A DNA stretch of 38,013 nucleotides, taken from positions 1-38,013 of the IMG/VR virus record IMGVR_UViG_3300020596_000062. One strand, written 5' to 3'. Numbering within the stretch: position 1 is the first letter of the stretch; each line of letters starts with the position of its first letter. Made by a program: the position numbers and the translations under genes. The notes beneath the pieces are model-generated. The model saw nothing but the letters and a program-made list of their open reading frames with translations. It searched no databases and was not told the origin of the DNA. Origin of the DNA: a virus. Shown piece by piece: positions 5,824 through 38,013 of this stretch.

Positions 5824-5831
5824 CGCCCACA

Positions 5832-5875
5832 GTCCCCCACTTGGTCCCCCACTTTTACGAAAAAGTCCCCCACTT
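5832..5875 (+). repeat. Left-arm repeats of attP (probable integrase arm sites)
   Basis: GTCCCCCACTT occurs at 5832-5842, 5844-5854 and 5865-5875. The same element recurs to the right of the tRNA match and inside the integrase gene. Clustered direct repeats flanking a tRNA-derived core are the usual layout of arm-type sites bound by the integrase N-terminal domain. Confidence 0.7.
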
Positions 5876-5925
5876 GTGCTTTTTCCGCTTACTTGTAGGG
5901 TTGACTCTAGAGGGAGAATTAATTT

Positions 5926-5987
5926 GATGTAGGGTGCGGCCGAGCTTCCCAAGCTCAGGGTCACGAGTTCGAGCCTCGTCTACCGCT
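5926..5987 (+). other. attP: attP core: 3' part of a tRNA-Gly(CCC) gene
   Basis: The stretch reads like the last three quarters of a tRNA. It has the end of a D-loop, then an anticodon arm GAGC-TTCCCAA-GCTC (loop 5946-5952, anticodon CCC). A T-arm ACGAG-TTCGAGC-CTCGT (5963-5979) follows, then the acceptor strand CTACCGC (5980-5986) and a T discriminator. No matching 5' acceptor (GCGGTAG) lies upstream, so it is not a functional tRNA gene here. Phages that integrate into tRNA genes carry exactly such a 3' fragment to restore the gene. Its position just before the integrase supports attP. The exact crossover cannot be defined without the host sequence. Confidence 0.8.
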
Positions 5988-6005
5988 TAATAAATTCAGG
6001 AGTTT

Positions 6006-6026
6006 ACCGCAGGACGTTGCGGTTTT
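6006..6026 (+). terminator. Short hairpin with a T-run behind the tRNA match
   Basis: ACCGCA (6006-6011), a six-base loop and TGCGGT (6018-6023) are followed by TTT. It could be a weak intrinsic terminator that after integration lies behind the restored tRNA-Gly gene, and it may reduce read-through into the integrase. Confidence 0.5.
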
Positions 6027-6045
6027 CCCCGCGAAATCCTAAAAA

Positions 6046-6065
6046 GTCCCCCACAATCCCCCACT
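6046..6065 (+). repeat. Right-arm repeats of attP
   Basis: GTCCCCCAC (6046-6054) and TCCCCCACT (6057-6065) repeat the left-arm element. Two further copies, at 6313-6321 and 6324-6333, lie inside the integrase coding sequence, where they encode part of a proline-rich linker. Confidence 0.65.
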
Positions 6066-6098
6066 CGTTTGGAGACTACTGGGGGACCGGGGGAAATT

Positions 6099-28516: not shown

Positions 28517-28619
28517 TGCGCGAGGCCGGATTTGAACCGGCTTTGTGGTTACCGAGATATCAAAGGGCAGTCCCACGATGCCCATTCTCGGGTGCTAGTT
28601 CCCACCTAGCCGCTCCCGC
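28517..28619 (-). ncRNA. tRNA-like RNA with an extended, non-standard anticodon arm
   Basis: On the minus strand a seven-pair acceptor (GCGGGAG/CTCGCGC, one mismatch) encloses a D-arm GCTA-GGTGGGAAC-TAGC. A textbook T-arm GCCGG-TTCAAAT-CCGGC follows. Between them a normal anticodon arm cannot be drawn. Instead CCGAGA/TCTCGG closes an internal loop and a second stem GGGCA/TGCCC with a nine-base loop. CCA is not encoded. It could be a decayed tRNA, a tRNA with an insertion in the anticodon arm, or a tRNA mimic. It lies between a strong terminator and the polymerase gene. Confidence 0.5.
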
Positions 28620-28693: not shown

Positions 28694-29050
28694 TTAATTC
28701 ACGTCAGGGAGCTTGTGCCACTTGTCGGGGTCGCGCTCATTTAGTTCAGCGTCCGCCACACATCGTCGATACATTGCGATTTCCTCAACGGAGGGCACTG
28801 TCACGTCTACTTCACAGGCGGTCGCGGAGATAACCCGCACTACCGTTCTAAGTAGTAGACTCTTGTTCGGATCCGCCAATTTCACTCTCTCGCTAACACA
28901 ATCGCAAACAAAGTTGACAACCTTAGACAACTCCGCGGCATCCACCGGCCTATCAAACATGCACGTAAAAGACACCGGAACAGTGTCAACCGTGGTCATT
29001 TTTGGAAACAAATCGATTTCAAGCGGACCGTGGGTGGGGGCGTTAGTCAT
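28694..29050 (-). CDS. Hypothetical protein
   Basis: This 118-residue, Val-rich, mixed alpha/beta protein (VDTVPVSFTCMFDRPVDAAE, RTVVRVISATACEVDVTVPS) has no membrane segment or recognised motif. It is the last gene before the strong leftward terminator and overlaps the upstream gene by ATGA. It is probably an early protein of unknown function. Confidence 0.65.
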   Translation of the reverse strand: MTNAPTHGPLEIDLFPKMTTVDTVPVSFTCMFDRPVDAAELSKVVNFVCDCVSERVKLADPNKSLLLRTVVRVISATACEVDVTVPSVEEIAMYRRCVADAELNERDPDKWHKLPDVN

Positions 29051-29382
29051 TGTGCATTCCTTTTGAAACGATCATCAGTTCCGGTCGAAGTTAATTGATA
29101 CGTCAGCAAGAACAACACACAACAACCCGCGTGAGCCAAGTGGGACAGACCACTTTCTGGGTCGTTATCTTCCCCGCGCGCGAATGCCCAGAGGTGTCGC
29201 ATCGTCGCGCCAATCAGACGAGACCAAGCCAGACCCTTACGCCAATTGTGCGCGTCATATTTCAGCGCGCCGAAACCCAAAACTTTGGCAATCTCTAACA
29301 TTGCCTCGGACGGCAACAATTCGACCGGGGTTTTGGTTGCATCGTATTTTAACGCCTCCCCAGGTGGGGGTGGAAAGCCCAT
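29047..29382 (-). CDS. DUF5664 / MazZ-like dATP/dGTP diphosphohydrolase
   Basis: This 111-residue protein contains KYDATKTPVELLPSEAMLEI, VLGFGALKYDAHNWRKGL, RHLWAFARGEDNDPESGLSH and HAGCCVLFLL. This is the conserved pattern of the small phage DUF5664 family, annotated as a dATP/dGTP diphosphohydrolase domain. Some members (MazZ) supply dGMP for 2-aminoadenine DNA synthesis, but no PurZ-like gene was seen here. A more general nucleotide-pool role is therefore likelier. It lies next to a second MazG-like gene. Confidence 0.8.
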   Translation of the reverse strand: MGFPPPPGEALKYDATKTPVELLPSEAMLEIAKVLGFGALKYDAHNWRKGLAWSRLIGATMRHLWAFARGEDNDPESGLSHLAHAGCCVLFLLTYQLTSTGTDDRFKRNAQ

Positions 29383-29383
29383 G

Positions 29384-29734
29384 TTACGCCACCCTTCGTT
29401 TGACGGCTTCGGCCCATGCCGCCGCGACCGCCGCGACTTGGATTAATTCGACGTACAGTTTTTCGGGGTCGGATTCGGCCAAGGCTTCACAAACCTCTTC
29501 ATGCAAAATGTGGCGCCACTCTAGTGTCCCATTGTTTGCGTGGGCGTCACACTCATCGCGGGCCCTTGCTGCCACGTCGCCATCCATTGGCCGGCCAGTT
29601 CCGTCTGGGTGATTTTGCTCGCCCCATTTCTCGTCTTGCGCCTTGCGCTCGCGGGCGATGTCACCCAACACGCCTAGGGATTGTGCGTGCAAAAAGTTCC
29701 GTATCCGCTGTAAACCTTCGGTGACATCTTTCAT
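29384..29734 (-). CDS. MazG-like (all-alpha NTP pyrophosphohydrolase family) protein
   Basis: This 116-residue helical protein has IARERKAQDEKWGEQNHPDG, then EWRHILHEEVCEALAESDPE and LYVELIQVAAVAAAWAEA. The EExxE-like and ELxQVAA helices match phage MazG-like nucleotide pyrophosphatases, which hydrolyse NTPs or dNTPs to monophosphates with magnesium. It probably shapes the nucleotide pool together with the DUF5664 gene that follows one base later. Confidence 0.78.
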   Translation of the reverse strand: MKDVTEGLQRIRNFLHAQSLGVLGDIARERKAQDEKWGEQNHPDGTGRPMDGDVAARARDECDAHANNGTLEWRHILHEEVCEALAESDPEKLYVELIQVAAVAAAWAEAVKRRVA

Positions 29735-32161: not shown

Positions 32162-32823
32162 TGGGTCACCTTGGTTAATTCTGCGATTCGTTGCTGATAC
32201 AGCGGAGTCACCATTTTTTTCTCCGACTCCGACAACTGCAGCGACTTCAGTGCCGCCAACGCGGCGCGTTCATCTTGTGCGGACGCGAGCAACTGTTTGG
32301 CTTGGTCTACTTTACTCGGGTGACCGCGGTCAGAAGACACAGAGGTGGAAGCGCCGGCTGCTTGTCCCAACGAGATAGAAGCGTTTCCAGCATATTTCTT
32401 AGGTGCGTCATGTTTTGACTCCTTTGAATGAGAGGCGGCATTTGCATCGTCGTCGTCGTCGGCGACAATTCCGAGCGCGGCGCACAGGGCGTACCGCTTT
32501 AAATATGTGATGGCTGAACCAACACCCTGAGGATCGTTCTTCGCAAGCGCGGTGCTAAACGGGGGGAACGCCATGAACTCACCGGAGGTGTGAACTAACA
32601 TCGTAGTCATACCCAGACGGTTATTCTCCGCGTCACAGGGGTACTGAATTACAGCCAGCCCGTTGTTGCTGAGGACGTCGCGGCAAGCCGCCCACACAGC
32701 GCCGAGATCCGCGTACCGCGATTTGAAATGAGGATTGGTAGAGTCTTTGATGGCAACTTGCATTGAGCCTTGGGCAGACACGAATGCTTTTAATAGTGAC
32801 GCCACGCTGTCGGATCGGTTCAT
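32158..32823 (-). CDS. erf: ERF-family single-strand annealing recombinase
   Basis: This 221-residue protein carries the ERF signature GVGSAITYLKRYALCAALGI followed by the acidic run VADDDDDAN (about 101-129). Earlier conserved parts are NPHFKSRYADLGAVW and GLAVIQYPCD. ERF proteins form rings that anneal complementary single strands, helping circularisation and recombination. The C-terminal third is Ser/Ala-rich linker and helix. It works with the neighbouring exonuclease and SSB. The start overlaps the previous stop as TAATG. Confidence 0.93.
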   Translation of the reverse strand: MNRSDSVASLLKAFVSAQGSMQVAIKDSTNPHFKSRYADLGAVWAACRDVLSNNGLAVIQYPCDAENNRLGMTTMLVHTSGEFMAFPPFSTALAKNDPQGVGSAITYLKRYALCAALGIVADDDDDANAASHSKESKHDAPKKYAGNASISLGQAAGASTSVSSDRGHPSKVDQAKQLLASAQDERAALAALKSLQLSESEKKMVTPLYQQRIAELTKVTQ

Positions 32824-33155
32824 TAGTTGTTCCTCAATAGTTTGCGGTGTGGGTTTGTTTCGTCGTTGGCGATTTGCTGAAAGGGCGAAGCGGCCGGATA
32901 CTCGCCATAGCTTTGGTCATACACTTCAACGTCTTGCCAGTAGCGGCTCTCCAGACATTCACGAATCCGCACCAACAGCTTGATGCGTTCGTTCAGGCGT
33001 AACCAAGTGCCCAGCGGAACCTTTCCGCGTTGTCGTGCCCGGGTCATCTCAATCAACCGCTCAGCGTGCTGAATGCGGCCGGCAGTCTTCTCTATGTTCC
33101 ACTGCAATCTTTTCTGTTCAGTTGAAAGAACCACCAGACACCCGCCTGAGCGCAT
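32823..33155 (-). CDS. Hypothetical basic helical protein, first gene of the leftward early operon
   Basis: The protein has 110 residues from the ATG at 33155; a TTG at 33188 would give 121. No good ribosome-binding site marks either start. It is helical and basic (LQWNIEKTAGRIQHAERLIE, RARQRGKVPLGTWLRLNERI) with a Tyr-rich acidic C-terminus. No family was recognised. The early leftward promoter should lie in the divergent gap 33156-33296, where GCTATTAAT on the minus strand is a possible -10. Confidence 0.6.
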   Translation of the reverse strand: MRSGGCLVVLSTEQKRLQWNIEKTAGRIQHAERLIEMTRARQRGKVPLGTWLRLNERIKLLVRIRECLESRYWQDVEVYDQSYGEYPAASPFQQIANDETNPHRKLLRNN

Positions 33156-33296
33156 GCACCGTTTGCAAGCTTGCAGAACAATACACAAACATTAATAGCA
33201 TTGCAATTGGGGTGTGTATGCGGTGTTTCGACACATTCCCGGTACTTCGTGTTTGTGTTATTGTTTGTCTCTGCGTTGCACACCAAGAGGTTTCAA

Positions 33297-33494
33297 ATGC
33301 CCGTGCCCAAGCTGGATCCAAAACAAAAAGGCAGTAGTTTCAACGTCGTCGTCAGATTCCCAAACTCGACAATCAAGCAAATCAGGAGAACCGCAAAGGC
33401 TTACGGGTACGCCAGTGTGTCCGAGTACATCCGGGAGGCTGCCGCCGCATTCCCCGTGCTTATGGATGAGGCAGTGGAGAGAGGTGACAAGTGA
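33297..33494 (+). CDS. Ribbon-helix-helix DNA-binding protein (Arc/CopG-like)
   Basis: The protein has 65 residues from the ATG behind AAGAGG. The sequence GSSFNVVVRFPNSTIKQIRR then TAKAYGYASVSEYIREAAAA is a beta strand followed by two helices, the MetJ/Arc fold that binds operators as a dimer of dimers. As the first gene rightward from a divergent control region, it is a likely autorepressor or early switch protein. The next gene starts at a GTG overlapping its stop. It is a candidate binder for one of the palindromes described here. Confidence 0.8.
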   Translation: MPVPKLDPKQKGSSFNVVVRFPNSTIKQIRRTAKAYGYASVSEYIREAAAAFPVLMDEAVERGDK

Positions 33495-35779
33495 GTACCT
33501 CCCAACGCGTTGATACTGAGCGGCTCATGGCCGATGCGGGGCAAGAAGGCTTTGTGAAGTTCCTGGACAAGGAAGGGATTGCGTTTTCTCGTGCGGGGGA
33601 AACATTGCGTTTGGATTGCCCCACCACCGCGTGCAAACACAAAGATCCTGGCGACGAGGATGCGGCTGTGTTCTACGGCGACCAACATGGTTGGAAGTGG
33701 AAATGTCACAGCTGTAGCACGTACGGATCGCTGCTCGATTTGGTCCAGACGGTTAAACGAATAGATTTCAAGCCTGCGCTTGCTTACGTAGAAGAGTTGC
33801 TGGGCATTTCCGCAAAACCGGCAGCTCCTGGCATGGGCAAAGTACGTAAGCTGATTACGCCCGATGCCGAGAAGATTTGGGAACAGCTCAATCCAACCGG
33901 AACGCCCGCGGCTATGGACTATCTGGCGGGGCGCAATTTACGGGGCGCTGCGACCGAGGAAATGTCTTTAATTCGTTTCGCCCCTGGCACGTGCCAGAAT
34001 GACTTTGTTAAATTCATCAGCACGACGCATCCTGTTGCGGTGCCGTTGTCTGATGTGAACGGCGACATCCAATCCATCGTGTTTCGCGCCATTACAAAAG
34101 TTGAGGGGGCCACCAAACTCAACCTTAAGCATTGCCCAACAAAGGGGGTCTTCTTCGGTGAGCCGTGGCGTCTAGATGAATGCAACACCGTTGCTGTCGC
34201 CGAGGGTATGGCTGACACGCTTGCGCTACAGCTGTGGGCGCCGAAGGATGTCTGTGTTGTAGGCGCACCCGGAAAGGATTGTTTAGTTGCCCTAGCAGAG
34301 GTCCTGTCGGGTAATGATATTGATGTGGCGGGCAAGTTTTTCATGTTGTTCCCTCAGAATGACAGACCCAAGAACGCGAGCCGCAAAGAGTTTCTTAAGC
34401 TCGCGGCGTTATTGCGAGCGCGTGGAGCAAAGGCGCGTGTTGTCGCTACACCGGGGCAGTTTGAAGATGTTGCTGCCTGGCGCAATGATGAGAGGGATGC
34501 AGCGTGGCCGGAAGCGGAACGCCGAGAACCCGAAAGCACTTCGAGCAGCAAGACAATCAGAATGGACGCCCCCGAAGAAATTGAGTGGGGCGCTAATTTA
34601 CAATCATTGGTTAGAGCATTTCGCGATCCGGAAATGCGCAAGCTTATACTGCAGCAGTCCGAGCACCTTCGCTTTAACGCATTGAGCTTGGATGTTGTTT
34701 TGAAGAATGGTCCGCTGACAGATTGGGACATCACGCCGATTCGATACCAGCTCGAGATCCATATTCCCTCAGCCCGTAAGGTGAGGTTCTCCAAGGATGA
34801 TGTCGGTGACGCGCTGATGGCCGTGGCCCGCGAAAATATCTTTAACCCCATCCAAGACTATTTGAATGGGCTGCAATGGGATGGCGTTTCTCGACTAGGT
34901 CCGGTCGGAGTTATCAATAAGGTTCTGGGGCGTGACGGAACCGAGCTTGAAACTGCTTTCATTCGTAAGTTCATGGTGGCCGCGGTTGCGCGTGCCATGG
35001 CACCTGGCTGCAAGTTTGACAGCACGCTGATTATGACCGGCCCCGGCGAATCTTATAAGAGCACGTTTTGTAGAGTGCTGGCCGGTGACGATTACTTCCG
35101 CGATTCCCACATTGACATTAACACCAAGGATGGATTGACCGCCCTCAAGGGCAATTGGATTATCGAGTGGTCCGAGCTGACAGCGGTCAAGCGCGCGAAG
35201 GACCAAGACACCATTAAATCGTACTTGTCCGCCACGGTTGACAAATACAGACCCCCGTATGGCAGGACAGACATTTCGGTGCCCCGCGCATGTGTAATTG
35301 TGGGAACCACTAATGACTCGGAGTTTTTGAGTGATCCCACAGGCAACAGACGCTACTGGCCGCTAACCCTCAAGGGGAATATCGACATCGCGTGGGTTGT
35401 AGCGAACCGAGACCAGTTATGGGCAGAGGCGGTTTCTATTTTCAAAACGTGGTTGGCGGGGCGCCCCATCAGCCACTGTTATGTACAGAATGACCCAACC
35501 AAGCCGTGGTTGCTCACCAAGACCGAGCAGCAGCTACAGGCGCCCGAGGCCAGGAAGTACGAACTGTCGGACGAATGGGAAGACGAAGTACGTGGGCGTG
35601 TCGCTAAGTTACCACGTGGCTTTTCCATCCGAGAGGTTTTGGTGGACATAGGCAAACAAGAAGGCCACATCACCCGCGCAGATGAAATGCGTATGGGCAA
35701 GGTCCTGAGGACTCTGCGGTTTACCAAACGCCAGGATGGTCATGGCCGTAATCGCTGGTTTCCATTAGACGCTGCCTAG
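33491..35779 (+). CDS. Primase-helicase (zinc finger, TOPRIM-like, VapE/VirE-type ATPase)
   Basis: The 762-residue protein starts with a CHC2-like zinc finger (LDCPTTAC around 41-48, WKCHSC around 70-75). A TOPRIM-like segment (TVAVAEGMADTLALQLW, near 230) follows. The C-terminal ATPase has Walker A GPGESYKST (about 517-525), Walker B-like NWIIEWSEL (about 555-563), then IKSYLSATVDKYRPPYGRT and VIVGTTNDSEFLSDPTGNRR. The last is the hallmark of the virulence-associated E family. It probably makes primers and unwinds DNA at the phage origin, with the family A polymerase. It starts at GTG 33491, coupled to the ribbon-helix-helix gene. Confidence 0.9.
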   Translation: MSTSQRVDTERLMADAGQEGFVKFLDKEGIAFSRAGETLRLDCPTTACKHKDPGDEDAAVFYGDQHGWKWKCHSCSTYGSLLDLVQTVKRIDFKPALAYVEELLGISAKPAAPGMGKVRKLITPDAEKIWEQLNPTGTPAAMDYLAGRNLRGAATEEMSLIRFAPGTCQNDFVKFISTTHPVAVPLSDVNGDIQSIVFRAITKVEGATKLNLKHCPTKGVFFGEPWRLDECNTVAVAEGMADTLALQLWAPKDVCVVGAPGKDCLVALAEVLSGNDIDVAGKFFMLFPQNDRPKNASRKEFLKLAALLRARGAKARVVATPGQFEDVAAWRNDERDAAWPEAERREPESTSSSKTIRMDAPEEIEWGANLQSLVRAFRDPEMRKLILQQSEHLRFNALSLDVVLKNGPLTDWDITPIRYQLEIHIPSARKVRFSKDDVGDALMAVARENIFNPIQDYLNGLQWDGVSRLGPVGVINKVLGRDGTELETAFIRKFMVAAVARAMAPGCKFDSTLIMTGPGESYKSTFCRVLAGDDYFRDSHIDINTKDGLTALKGNWIIEWSELTAVKRAKDQDTIKSYLSATVDKYRPPYGRTDISVPRACVIVGTTNDSEFLSDPTGNRRYWPLTLKGNIDIAWVVANRDQLWAEAVSIFKTWLAGRPISHCYVQNDPTKPWLLTKTEQQLQAPEARKYELSDEWEDEVRGRVAKLPRGFSIREVLVDIGKQEGHITRADEMRMGKVLRTLRFTKRQDGHGRNRWFPLDAA

Positions 35780-35821
35780 CAGGCAATTAAACGTTTGGTA
35801 CGATGGATACGCTTGCGCCAA

Positions 35822-35851
35822 TTGACGGAATGTATTACACGCCTCTATGTT
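35822..35851 (+). promoter_or_regulatory. Possible promoter of the HTH-receiver gene
   Basis: TTGACG (35822-35827) and TATGTT (35846-35851) are 18 bases apart. The predicted start near 35858 would favour the ATG at 35862 with little or no leader. Confidence 0.4.
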
Positions 35852-35861
35852 TGAGGCGCTC

Positions 35862-36455
35862 ATGCAAGGAACTAAGAAGACCGCAGACGATGCACTTCCC
35901 AAGGTTGGAGAATATTACTCCACTATTGAGATCGGGAAGATGTTGGATGTCACACCATCTACGGTGTGGCGTTGGATTAAGCAGGGCAGACTGAACGCGT
36001 ACAACACGCCAGGCGGACACAGACGAGTCCCCATCGCGGATCTACGCGAGTTCATAATCAAGAACGACATTCCCGTACCCACGATGCTGAGCTCGGCGGT
36101 CATCAAGTTATTGGTGATTGACGACCATGCAAAGGTCCTGTCGAGTCTTGATAAAGAAATCAAATCCGCGAAGGCCCCAATTGAGCTGATTGTGACCACA
36201 TCGGGCATTGATGCGATCATGATGATGGACAAGGAGAAGCCAGACGCCGCGCTGATTGATTTGAACATGCGCGAGGTTGATGGGCTGGCATTGGTTCGCA
36301 GGTTGGCCCAGAAGTACGCTGGCGGCCCGCTGAGGGTACTTACGATGACTGACTCGCTGACGGCCAAGGCCACAACAGAATCCGCCAAGGCGGGTGCAAT
36401 GGGGTGTCTGAAGAAACCCATCAAAGCGGCCATGCTGATGAAGCTGTTGAAGTAG
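35862..36455 (+). CDS. Excisionase-type HTH fused to a response-regulator receiver domain
   Basis: The protein has 197 residues from the ATG at 35862, behind GAGG; ATG at 35847 is possible. The N-terminal domain (about 18-66) reads EYYSTIEIGKMLDVTPSTVW then RWIKQGRLNAYNTPGGHRRV, a MerR/excisionase-type winged helix-turn-helix. The C-terminal half is a CheY-like receiver with all key residues: LLVIDDH (D87, D88), ALIDLNM (phospho-acceptor D133), VLTMT (switch Thr about 161-163) and CLKKPI (K185). It could be a phosphorylation-controlled excisionase or a lysis-lysogeny regulator that senses host kinases or acetyl phosphate; this is inference. No kinase gene is present in the phage. Confidence 0.88.
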   Translation: MQGTKKTADDALPKVGEYYSTIEIGKMLDVTPSTVWRWIKQGRLNAYNTPGGHRRVPIADLREFIIKNDIPVPTMLSSAVIKLLVIDDHAKVLSSLDKEIKSAKAPIELIVTTSGIDAIMMMDKEKPDAALIDLNMREVDGLALVRRLAQKYAGGPLRVLTMTDSLTAKATTESAKAGAMGCLKKPIKAAMLMKLLK

Positions 36456-36571
36456 CGTTACCTGGGAGGGGTGCGCTGCTGGGGCGGCGGAACGAACTGG
36501 CCAAGTCCGGTCGAAGAATATTATGTGCGAGGCTCGAGTCGGATCTATACGCACACAACCCAGGGATACCC

Positions 36572-36585
36572 TGAACAGCTGTTCA
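36572..36585. promoter_or_regulatory. Perfect 14-bp palindrome TGAACAGCTGTTCA
   Basis: The site contains GAAC-N4-GTTC, the core pattern of LexA boxes of the Bacillus type. It lies about 115 bases past the HTH-receiver gene. It may be an SOS or repressor operator; the binding protein is unknown. Confidence 0.4.
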
Positions 36586-36700
36586 TGTAGGTTTTACCTG
36601 ATACTACCGACTACTTACAGGCTACCTTTTTTTTGTGATGTCTTGGCACTTTCCTTAATGATTTCATGCATTAAGAACCATACTAGATACTATAGATAAC

Positions 36701-36738
36701 TATTATATATATATATATATATATAAATATAGCTATAG
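36701..36738. other. AT tract, possible DNA unwinding element
   Basis: About 38 bases consist of alternating TA with two short breaks, ending TATAGCTATAG. Nothing comparable occurs elsewhere in the genome. Low melting stability next to repeat arrays fits an origin. Confidence 0.5.
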
Positions 36739-36922
36739 CAGTACAGCAGCACATGCACTGAGCCAGGGTTAGGAAACAGGGGTCTAGATATCAGGTGTTA
36801 TTTGGCCCCAGTAATTCCAGGCACTTGGGTCCAAAAATACAGGTGACCTCAGAATGGGGTGTTTTTAGCCACCAATCGCTCAGGTAGGATCACCCGCGAA
36901 AGGTAGGACACCAGTCCACATC

Positions 36923-37054
36923 CAGTCTCGTTTGTGAGACGGGTGATTATCGACCCGCGTAAATGTTTACGCACCTGGACCGACTGCGTAAATGTTTACG
37001 CACCTGGAAACCGGCCGCACACCAAAAACAAACAGTCTCGTTTGTGAGACGGGT
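36923..37054. repeat. A-B-B-A array of paired palindromic repeats
   Basis: Repeat A (CAGTCTCGTTTG then TGAGACGGGT, 22 bp) is at 36923-36944 and 37033-37054; each can form a GTCTC/GAGAC hairpin. Repeat B (GCGTAAATGTTTACGC then ACCTGGA, 23 bp) is at 36957-36979 and 36986-37008, spaced 29 bp start to start. Its palindrome GCGTAAA/TTTACGC is perfect. The two types of dimer-binding site suggest initiator or repressor binding. Confidence 0.85.
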
Positions 37055-37193
37055 CATCAGCACCCCGCGCATAATATTTACCTCGACCGGAACCACAGCA
37101 GTTCCCGCGACTTACTGTACTGGACTGGCAATTGTACCGTAACTCGTCCACGAACACTACCAGTGGTATGTGGGCAAGCGCCCTACCCCGACA

Positions 37194-37252
37194 GGTGGGG
37201 GGTGTGGGGGTGGGGTATGACACCTCGGGGGGTGGGGTATGAGAGTGGGGGG
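37194..37252 (+). other. G-rich direct repeats with G-quadruplex potential
   Basis: Six runs of at least four G (starting 37197, 37206, 37212, 37227, 37234, 37247) lie within 56 bases. GGTGGGGTATGA occurs twice. The first four runs could form a quadruplex on the plus strand. Confidence 0.6.
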
Positions 37253-37271
37253 CATACATTAAAAATTTTCA

Positions 37272-37333
37272 GGAATAAGTCAACGTTTCTTTACATACCT
37301 GCGGAATAAGTCAACGTTTCTTTACATACCTGC
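37272..37333 (+). repeat. Perfect 31-bp tandem duplication
   Basis: Units 37272-37302 and 37303-37333 are identical, running from GGAATAAGTCAACG to TTTACATACCTGC, with no spacer. They may be protein-binding iterons or a recent slippage duplication. Confidence 0.9.
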
Positions 37334-37340
37334 CCCCATG

Positions 37341-37367
37341 TGTATAGTTTTACTGGTTTTCTATACA
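37341..37367. promoter_or_regulatory. Inverted repeat TGTATAG/CTATACA
   Basis: TGTATAG (37341-37347) and CTATACA (37361-37367) flank a 13-base spacer directly upstream of the duplicated gene start. The right half includes TATACAAT, a possible -10. It is a likely operator or promoter for the gene at 37409. Confidence 0.5.
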
Positions 37368-37421
37368 ATACACCCCATGAATCCATCAGTTTCTATACAA
37401 TACACCCCATGAATCCATCAG
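37358..37421 (+). repeat. Perfect 32-bp tandem duplication spanning promoter and start codon
   Basis: Units 37358-37389 and 37390-37421 are identical. Each holds TATACAAT, a short CACCCC leader, and the first four codons ATGAATCCATCA. The upstream copy opens only an 11-codon frame ending at the TGA that overlaps the downstream ATG (CATGA), so it acts as a decoy or upstream frame. Confidence 0.9.
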
Positions 37422-37600
37422 ACTGGATTGAATTCAGCCCAGAAACGCTAATTCGGACCACGAATAAAGCTTATTGCATCCGAATGCATGGATTGCCTGT
37501 CTGGGTCCCTAAGTCGGCCACACGGTGGCCTCCCACGAAATTCGAAGATGGGGTCACGCTGGTGGTCGTAAAGCGCTGGTGGGCCGCCAAGGCGCTGTAA
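37409..37600 (+). CDS. Small phage protein (WVPKS-type)
   Basis: The protein has 63 residues from the ATG in the second 32-bp unit. The pattern LIRTTNKAYCIRMHG then LPVWVPKSATRWP resembles a family of small phage proteins of unknown function with a central W-x-PKS turn. A C-terminal beta strand and a Trp pair (LVVVKRWWAAKAL) follow. It is the first gene after the control region, in an operon that continues across the junction to rusA. Confidence 0.7.
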   Translation: MNPSDWIEFSPETLIRTTNKAYCIRMHGLPVWVPKSATRWPPTKFEDGVTLVVVKRWWAAKAL

Positions 37601-37767
37601 TGGGCTACGGCGGGTGTTTCTACCCCCAATGCACCATAAACCGGCTCGGTCCCGCTAAATTGACGCATTGCGGCATGATTCTGACGGACACTATCTCGAT
37701 GGACCGCAAAATCGGCAGCTTTCGCGCATTACCGATGCATTACCCCGCAGCTTCCATCGGCATATGA
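37600..37767 (+). CDS. Small Cys-containing hypothetical protein
   Basis: This 55-residue frame starts at the ATG that overlaps the upstream stop as TAATG, the coupling used repeatedly in this genome. It contains three cysteines (GGCFYPQC and HCGM) and ends ALPMHYPAASIGI. No family was recognised. Its stop overlaps a palindromic operator-like site. Confidence 0.5.
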   Translation: MGYGGCFYPQCTINRLGPAKLTHCGMILTDTISMDRKIGSFRALPMHYPAASIGI

Positions 37768-37785
37768 GTACCCATATGTACTCAT
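37764..37785. promoter_or_regulatory. Inverted repeat ATGAGTAC/GTACTCAT
   Basis: Two perfect eight-base arms (37764-37771, 37778-37785) surround six bases. It lies in the roughly 208-bp gap before rusA. The gap also holds two ACATCGGCAA repeats, a strong dispersed motif (37869-37877) and a weak TATAAG box in the junction overlap. A repressor site is likely. Confidence 0.5.
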
Positions 37786-37886
37786 TACGGCCGTTTATGG
37801 ATACGTTTAGGTTCGCGCAACATCGGCAACGCACATCGGCAAAATGACGCCCCGGGCTTAATATTTTCTCGACCGGACCTTAGATG

Positions 37887-38013
37887 GCCGTCGACCCCCC
37901 GTATGGTATAAGATGGGCTAATGCTAATGCGCCCCACCCTTGTCTGCCGGTCATTACCGCCTCCTCGGCGGTCACATGTACAAAGTCGTAGTCAAAGGTA
38001 AGCCAGTCGCTAA
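37887..38013. repeat. Right copy of the 127-bp terminal overlap
   Basis: It is identical to 1-127. The partial RusA reading frame starting at 37976 is the same gene as at 90, not a second gene. Confidence 0.95.

Follow-up and report, generated by a model that had tools for sequence, protein, structure and literature searches.

Gene layout and boundaries of the non-coding gap

The locus at 36456–37408 raises the question of what function is served by 953 bp of geneless phage DNA in which sequence elements of several kinds lie in pairs. A first-pass annotation had proposed a combined origin and switch, served by several dimeric DNA-binding proteins. The window, meaning the whole stretch of DNA analysed, is a 38,013-bp record with identical first and last 127 bases (1–127 and 37887–38013), and therefore it closes into a circle of 37,886 bp. 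Because the exact length of the overlap, 127 bases, points to an assembly k-mer, which we take to be more probable than true terminal repeats, it does not place the ends of the virion DNA. The virus is an unclassified virus of bacteria, and no near relative was present in the phage collection searched. It is probably temperate, since a tyrosine integrase gene adjoins an apparent attP site (5824–6068), in which the apparent 3' part of a tRNA-Gly(CCC) gene at 5940–5987 is flanked by repeated GTCCCCCAC arm-type sites; the anticodon was called by reading the sequence, and Rfam gave the fragment no score.

The rightward genes run from about 37409 through the closure to 21553 and code for RusA, terminase, integrase, portal, capsid and tail proteins, and the leftward genes extend from 33188 to 21717 and code for an Erf annealing protein, a PD-(D/E)XK nuclease, SSB, a family A DNA polymerase, lysis and fibre proteins. 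A second rightward set occupies 33297 to 36455 and ends at the gap, which is the largest geneless gap in the genome, contributing 953 bp (28%) to the 3434 bp of non-coding DNA. The gap is bounded by the VapE/HTH-receiver operon on one side and by the rightward genes running to 21553 on the other, with the following genes next to it:

33297–33494, plus strand: putative ribbon-helix-helix protein, 65 aa (Pfam RHH_1, E 0.027, below the cut-off; tentative)
33491–35779, plus strand: VapE-type primase-helicase (Pfam PF05272, E 3e-68; PHROG helicase/primase families)
35847–36455, plus strand: BldC/excisionase-type HTH (HTH_17) fused to a receiver domain, 202 aa (Pfam PF12728 and PF00072)
37409–37600, plus strand: 63-aa ORF, the first of the rightward genes, without a family match in the searches run

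The ribbon-helix-helix ORF overlaps the start of the primase-helicase gene. The two longest ORFs of the gap itself (36992–37309 and 36996–37259) were rejected as genes because of their non-coding codon statistics, and no RNA family was detected by Rfam in the gap region. The local fold after the HTH/receiver gene was no better than those of shuffles, giving no sign of an intrinsic terminator at this place. A palindrome, ATGAGTACCCATATGTACTCAT, is present at 37764–37785 in the non-coding stretch separating the 63-aa ORF from the RusA gene.

Some other loci of the genome were recorded in passing. A 103-nt tRNA-like gene on the minus strand (28517–28619) has acceptor, D and T arms and an anticodon arm expanded by some 30 nt; it scores 20.3 bits with the Rfam tRNA model, which is below the gathering threshold, and ARAGORN finds no tRNA there. 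The gene at 29047–29382 (minus strand) codes for a dATP/dGTP diphosphohydrolase-type domain (PF18909), with no PurZ recognised, and its neighbour at 29384–29734 codes for a small protein which appears by eye to be possibly MazG-like.

Paired elements in the gap

The elements described in the first-pass annotation, consisting of two kinds of palindrome arranged A-B-B-A, paired G-rich repeats, perfect tandem pairs of 31 and 32 bp and an AT tract, are all present at the places given for them. Two details had to be corrected: the TA tract, reported as 38 bp long, contains an uninterrupted TA run of 24 bp (28 bp in TRF), and the 32-bp pair, which is indeed perfect, does not end inside the gap, since its second copy covers the first 13 bp of the next ORF, including the ATG at 37409.

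36683–36742, no strand: AT-rich imperfect palindrome with the 24-bp TA run at 36703–36726, candidate DNA-unwinding element
36923–36944, plus strand: repeat A, copy 1, 22 identical bp, with GTCTC-N6-GAGAC at 36925–36940
36957–36979, plus strand: repeat B, copy 1, palindrome GCGTAAATGTTTACGC plus ACCTGGA, 23 identical bp
36986–37008, plus strand: repeat B, copy 2, 23 bp identical to copy 1
37033–37054, plus strand: repeat A, copy 2, 110 bp from copy 1, with GTCTC-N6-GAGAC at 37035–37050
37195–37256, plus strand: G-rich stretch (G4Hunter) with repeated GGGGGTGGGGTATGA, including a 15-mer at 37206 and 37228
37272–37333, plus strand: 31-bp perfect tandem pair, 100% identical copies about three helical turns apart
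37358–37421, plus strand: 32-bp perfect tandem pair, 100% identical copies, containing two ATGs

Repeats of this kind greatly exceed chance expectation and are almost restricted to the gap. The region contains 58 repeated 14-mers, compared to a mean of 0.004 and a maximum of 2 in dinucleotide shuffles, and the only direct 14-mer repeats within 600 bp found elsewhere in the genome are the integrase arms (5860/6041) and a pair within one gene (17723/17876). At 62 and 64 bp, the tandem arrays do not reach the length of the 127-bp end overlap, and we consider it unlikely that the assembly has collapsed or expanded them. Both perfect pairs, with units of 31 and 32 bp, may represent young duplications.

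The arms of the A palindromes measure just 5 bp. The right flanks of the two copies resemble each other over about 18 bp (a similarity matched by 3.2% of shuffles), and repeat A may have been duplicated together with its right flank. Folded as RNA, the A-B-B-A stretch outperforms shuffles by 4.1 sd, as the palindromes predict, and the G-rich stretch has the top G4Hunter score of the genome (2.2). Repeat B and the 31-bp repeat have TTTACNNACCTG in common, a sequence with four occurrences in the record, all of them in the gap and in the same direction; since these four copies come from two duplicated elements, they make a weak case that both repeats could represent one type of site. Another palindrome of 14 bp at 36572–36585 (GAACN4GTTC), which resembles a Gram-positive SOS box, occurs at chance level for the genome and was discarded as a signal.

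A candidate promoter of the rightward operon in the right part

Our best explanation of these elements is that the gap represents a combined control region, providing a promoter for the rightward operon in its right part and the likeliest replication origin in its left part. We propose this tentatively, as a reading that could well be correct and is slightly more apt to be wrong. The gap would then be the main non-coding control region of the genome, composed of two adjacent parts.

The right part (about 37195–37421) would contain a regulated promoter of the operon for the 63-aa ORF, RusA, terminase, portal, capsid and tail proteins, for which we identified the following candidate:

37321–37348, plus strand: promoter-like TTTACA-16-TATAGT, sigma-70-like, 10 of 12 consensus positions

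This is the best promoter match in the stretch of 32800–38013, in which matches occur at background level (3 found vs. 4.5 expected from shuffles). It faces the packaging/structural operon and its −35 element lies within the second 31-bp copy, suggesting that the two phased 31-bp repeats may act as binding sites for a regulator. Further downstream, the 32-bp pair opens, with the first of its two ATGs, an 11-codon frame (37377–37412) that ends with a TGA overlapping the ATG at 37409 (ATGA); this frame possibly codes for a leader peptide and would owe its existence to the 32-bp duplication. Because the rightward packaging/structural operon is the only operon that the gap can serve, turning on this operon is a likelier role than that of a lysogeny switch.

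Candidate DNA-binding proteins

Two candidate binders are encoded next to the gap, namely the weakly supported ribbon-helix-helix protein and the BldC/excisionase-type HTH-receiver protein. We infer that the 31-bp repeats would probably be bound by the latter, whose gene is located just upstream. Its HTH domain scores above the cut-off of TIGR01764 and below the cut-off of the NCBIfam BldC model itself, and the matches in the PDB are to BldC (6ama) and to receiver domains. As judged from alignments, the acidic pair, the phospho-acceptor Asp and the Lys residue are all retained in the receiver, and therefore its phosphorylation appears possible. Such proteins are rare among phage records, 50,697 of which gave a single weak receiver match with 30% identity over about half of the protein. 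A single-sequence structure prediction of the protein reached a mean pLDDT of 54 and was left unused.

BldC of Streptomyces binds head-to-tail on direct repeats and not as a symmetric dimer (PMC5859096). By analogy, this binding mode fits the repeats at the candidate promoter, which are direct and not inverted. For the several dimeric DNA-binding proteins proposed in the first pass, the neighbouring candidates are these two regulators; their dimeric binding is unproven, and BldC itself does not bind as a symmetric dimer.

No phage sharing the region was found in viral contigs using the HTH/receiver, VapE, portal and terminase proteins, alignments of VapE and portal, and two DNA patterns, nor in genome contigs using the HTH/receiver protein. 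Likewise, tblastn searches of 80 VapE loci gave no match to the HTH/receiver protein, the ribbon-helix-helix protein or the 63-aa ORF; these loci share only the helicase region and are perhaps too distant or too short to exclude such partners elsewhere. The Silvanigrella phage CP017838.1 codes for distantly related portal, capsid, terminase and tail proteins (24–29% identity), and its replication genes match only over a 97-residue stretch of DNA polymerase.

A candidate replication origin in the left part

The left part of the gap (about 36680–37060) would be the likeliest replication origin, with the AT-rich palindrome as unwinding element, the A and B palindrome pairs as the targets of an initiator or of a protein regulating it, and the VapE-type primase-helicase as the enzyme using it. 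We rate the presence of an origin in the gap at somewhat less than an even chance. The duplex stability minimum of the entire genome is located here, in a 50-bp segment at 36681 with a dG of −43.0, compared to a mean of −73.5 (sd 4.7) and a next lowest value of −57.2; the AT-rich DNA around the TA run extends over about 60 bp. The origins of phage-inducible chromosomal islands (PICI) are located immediately 3' of the pri/rep genes and consist of an AT-rich melting site with two sets of short iterons, one on each side of the AT-rich region (PMC6092414). In the phage genome, a gene with a helicase domain (33491–35779) is present upstream, separated by one regulator gene, and the potential melting site 3' of it coincides with the stability minimum. 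Two iteron sets around the AT-rich region were not detected, as no 5- to 7-mer on either side exceeded the range of shuffles. The density of CAGG/CCTG is increased near the AT tract (23 per kb vs. 6), which refers to a motif picked post hoc, and the A/B cluster with its two A and two B sites lies about 190 bp away from the tract. GC skew, which had been suggested as a check, proved uninformative as an origin test because it tracks the coding strand and gene direction. The origin proposed in the first-pass annotation is favoured by its position behind the VapE-type primase-helicase and regulator genes, by containing the least stable DNA and by the paired sites in its vicinity, but it lacks flanking iterons and receives no signal from the skew.

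Some of these observations would equally suit a gap that controls transcription only, with the A, B, G-rich and 31/32-bp pairs all regulating the rightward operon and the origin being located elsewhere, e.g., in the primase-helicase gene or at 33189–33490. This operon is the sole clear cargo of the gap, and both the distance between the A/B sites and the AT tract and the absence of iteron sets agree with such a role. It would leave the extreme stability minimum at the AT tract unexplained, as well as its position 3' of a pri-rep type gene, which is the usual place of a PICI origin, and we therefore regard a purely transcriptional role as unlikely, if a serious contender.

If the combined reading of promoter and origin is true, a short cloned segment would make origin and late-promoter function testable in an uncharacterised phage lineage, and the phage would provide an example of employing a phosphorylation-ready BldC-like regulator.

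Other explanations of the repeats

The repeats may also be largely neutral, representing young duplications that persist in the largest non-coding gap since insertions of 31 or 32 bp break genes. This would account for the complete identity of the tandem copies, for unit lengths of which neither is divisible by three, for the duplicated start codon in the 32-bp pair and, given that the gap makes up 28% of the non-coding DNA, for part of the clustering. It does not explain all five pairs: we estimate the chance of finding five independent pairs in this one gap at roughly 0.28^5 (about 0.002) if they were placed at random over the non-coding DNA, and the A and B repeats are palindromic and non-tandem, with diverged flanks around A. 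We regard this largely neutral origin of the repeats as improbable.

We give even less credit to a cos or pac region with repeated sites recognised by terminase. A putative small terminase gene at 1028 follows about 1.6 kb downstream of the gap, and the true ends of the genome are presumably not fixed by the 127-bp overlap, but cos and pac sites are usually adjacent to or within the small terminase gene, from which the gap is separated by RusA and other genes.

A lambda-type lysogeny switch with A and B as repressor operators would suit the temperate features, with a tyrosine integrase by the apparent tRNA-Gly attP, and the paired palindromic sites, but it is hardly credible because no copies of A or B with up to 4 mismatches are present at the divergent early promoter region (33189–33296), both being restricted to the gap, and because no CI- or Cro-like gene was recognised among the proteins scanned. 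The switch proposed in the first pass is supported by the promoter-like site pointing into the packaging/structural operon, and a lambda type of switch is disfavoured by the lack of A and B sites at the early promoters.

A dispersed octamer motif

Beyond the control gap, the more unusual feature of the genome is the exact octamer CGACCGGA (C motif), which occurs 24 times on both strands, compared to 1.4 expected copies. Three copies are found in or near the gap:

36506–36527, minus strand: C motif (CGACCGGA with AT-rich upstream flank), pointing left and outward
37070–37091, plus strand: C motif, pointing right and outward
37858–37877, plus strand: a third C motif close by, located upstream of the RusA gene

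Positions of the motif include 5795, 10308, 20256(−), 24965(−), 36513(−), 37084 and 37870. It is preceded by a flank of about 11 bp which is first AT-rich and then pyrimidine-rich, so that the whole motif reads roughly TAATATTTTCTCGACCGGAA. The core is exact, because its one-mismatch neighbours occur in only 0 to 5 copies each. Most copies are inside genes (20, compared to 1.7, and at most 8, in 1000 synonymous-codon shuffles) at about equal sense and antisense frequency, and the orientations are balanced with a tendency to alternate (19 runs in 24 sites, about 13 expected). T7-like promoters were ruled out by the occurrence of both orientations within genes, and stoperators were ruled out by orientation as well. 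The nearest analogy would be an uptake-sequence-like or Chi-like site, and a literature search for the octamer yielded nothing relevant. Three of four comparison phages do not contain an octamer as strong, the exception being the environmental phage MW202816.1, in which CCGTCGGA occurs in 28 copies (2.2 expected) and also has AT-rich flanks.

We also considered that the HTH-receiver protein would read a host phosphorelay and couple replication initiation to switching on the late operon via the paired repeats, with the outward-pointing C motifs linking the gap to the 24-site system. There is a slim chance at best that this extended scheme is correct.

Comparison with known systems

The gap is a real and well-bounded control region, and its repeats are fairly ordinary, falling within known kinds of phage control region. 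It resembles the pri-rep-ori arrangement of PICI such as SaPI and EcCI in containing AT-rich non-coding DNA 3' of a gene of the primase-helicase type, with repeats nearby, but differs in that iteron sets are not significant and a regulator gene intervenes between the primase-helicase gene and the gap (PMC6092414). Repeat B, as a directly repeated palindrome, is reminiscent of the semi-palindromic direct repeats in the RepA_N-type origin of PLE (PMC7145576), but only two copies are present and no RepA_N protein was recognised in the phage genome.

The C motif shares with the stoperators of mycobacteriophage L5 the presence of about two dozen asymmetric, dispersed sites with an invariant core. 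The L5 sites mostly follow the direction of transcription and have been described in short intergenic gaps, whereas the C motif is mostly genic and about equally frequent in sense and antisense (PMC9283540, PMC6550527).

BldC-regulated promoters of Streptomyces provide a parallel to the right part of the gap, where a BldC-type HTH is encoded beside direct repeats at a promoter-like site. In contrast to these promoters, the HTH is fused to a receiver, the repeats are 29–32 bp apart instead of one helical turn, and no AATTNNNNC series is demonstrated in the gap (PMC5859096). The same pair of domain types occurs in MerR-family HTH/receiver response regulators (e.g., PDB 3cnb), from which the protein described here differs in being encoded by a phage, near a primase-helicase gene.
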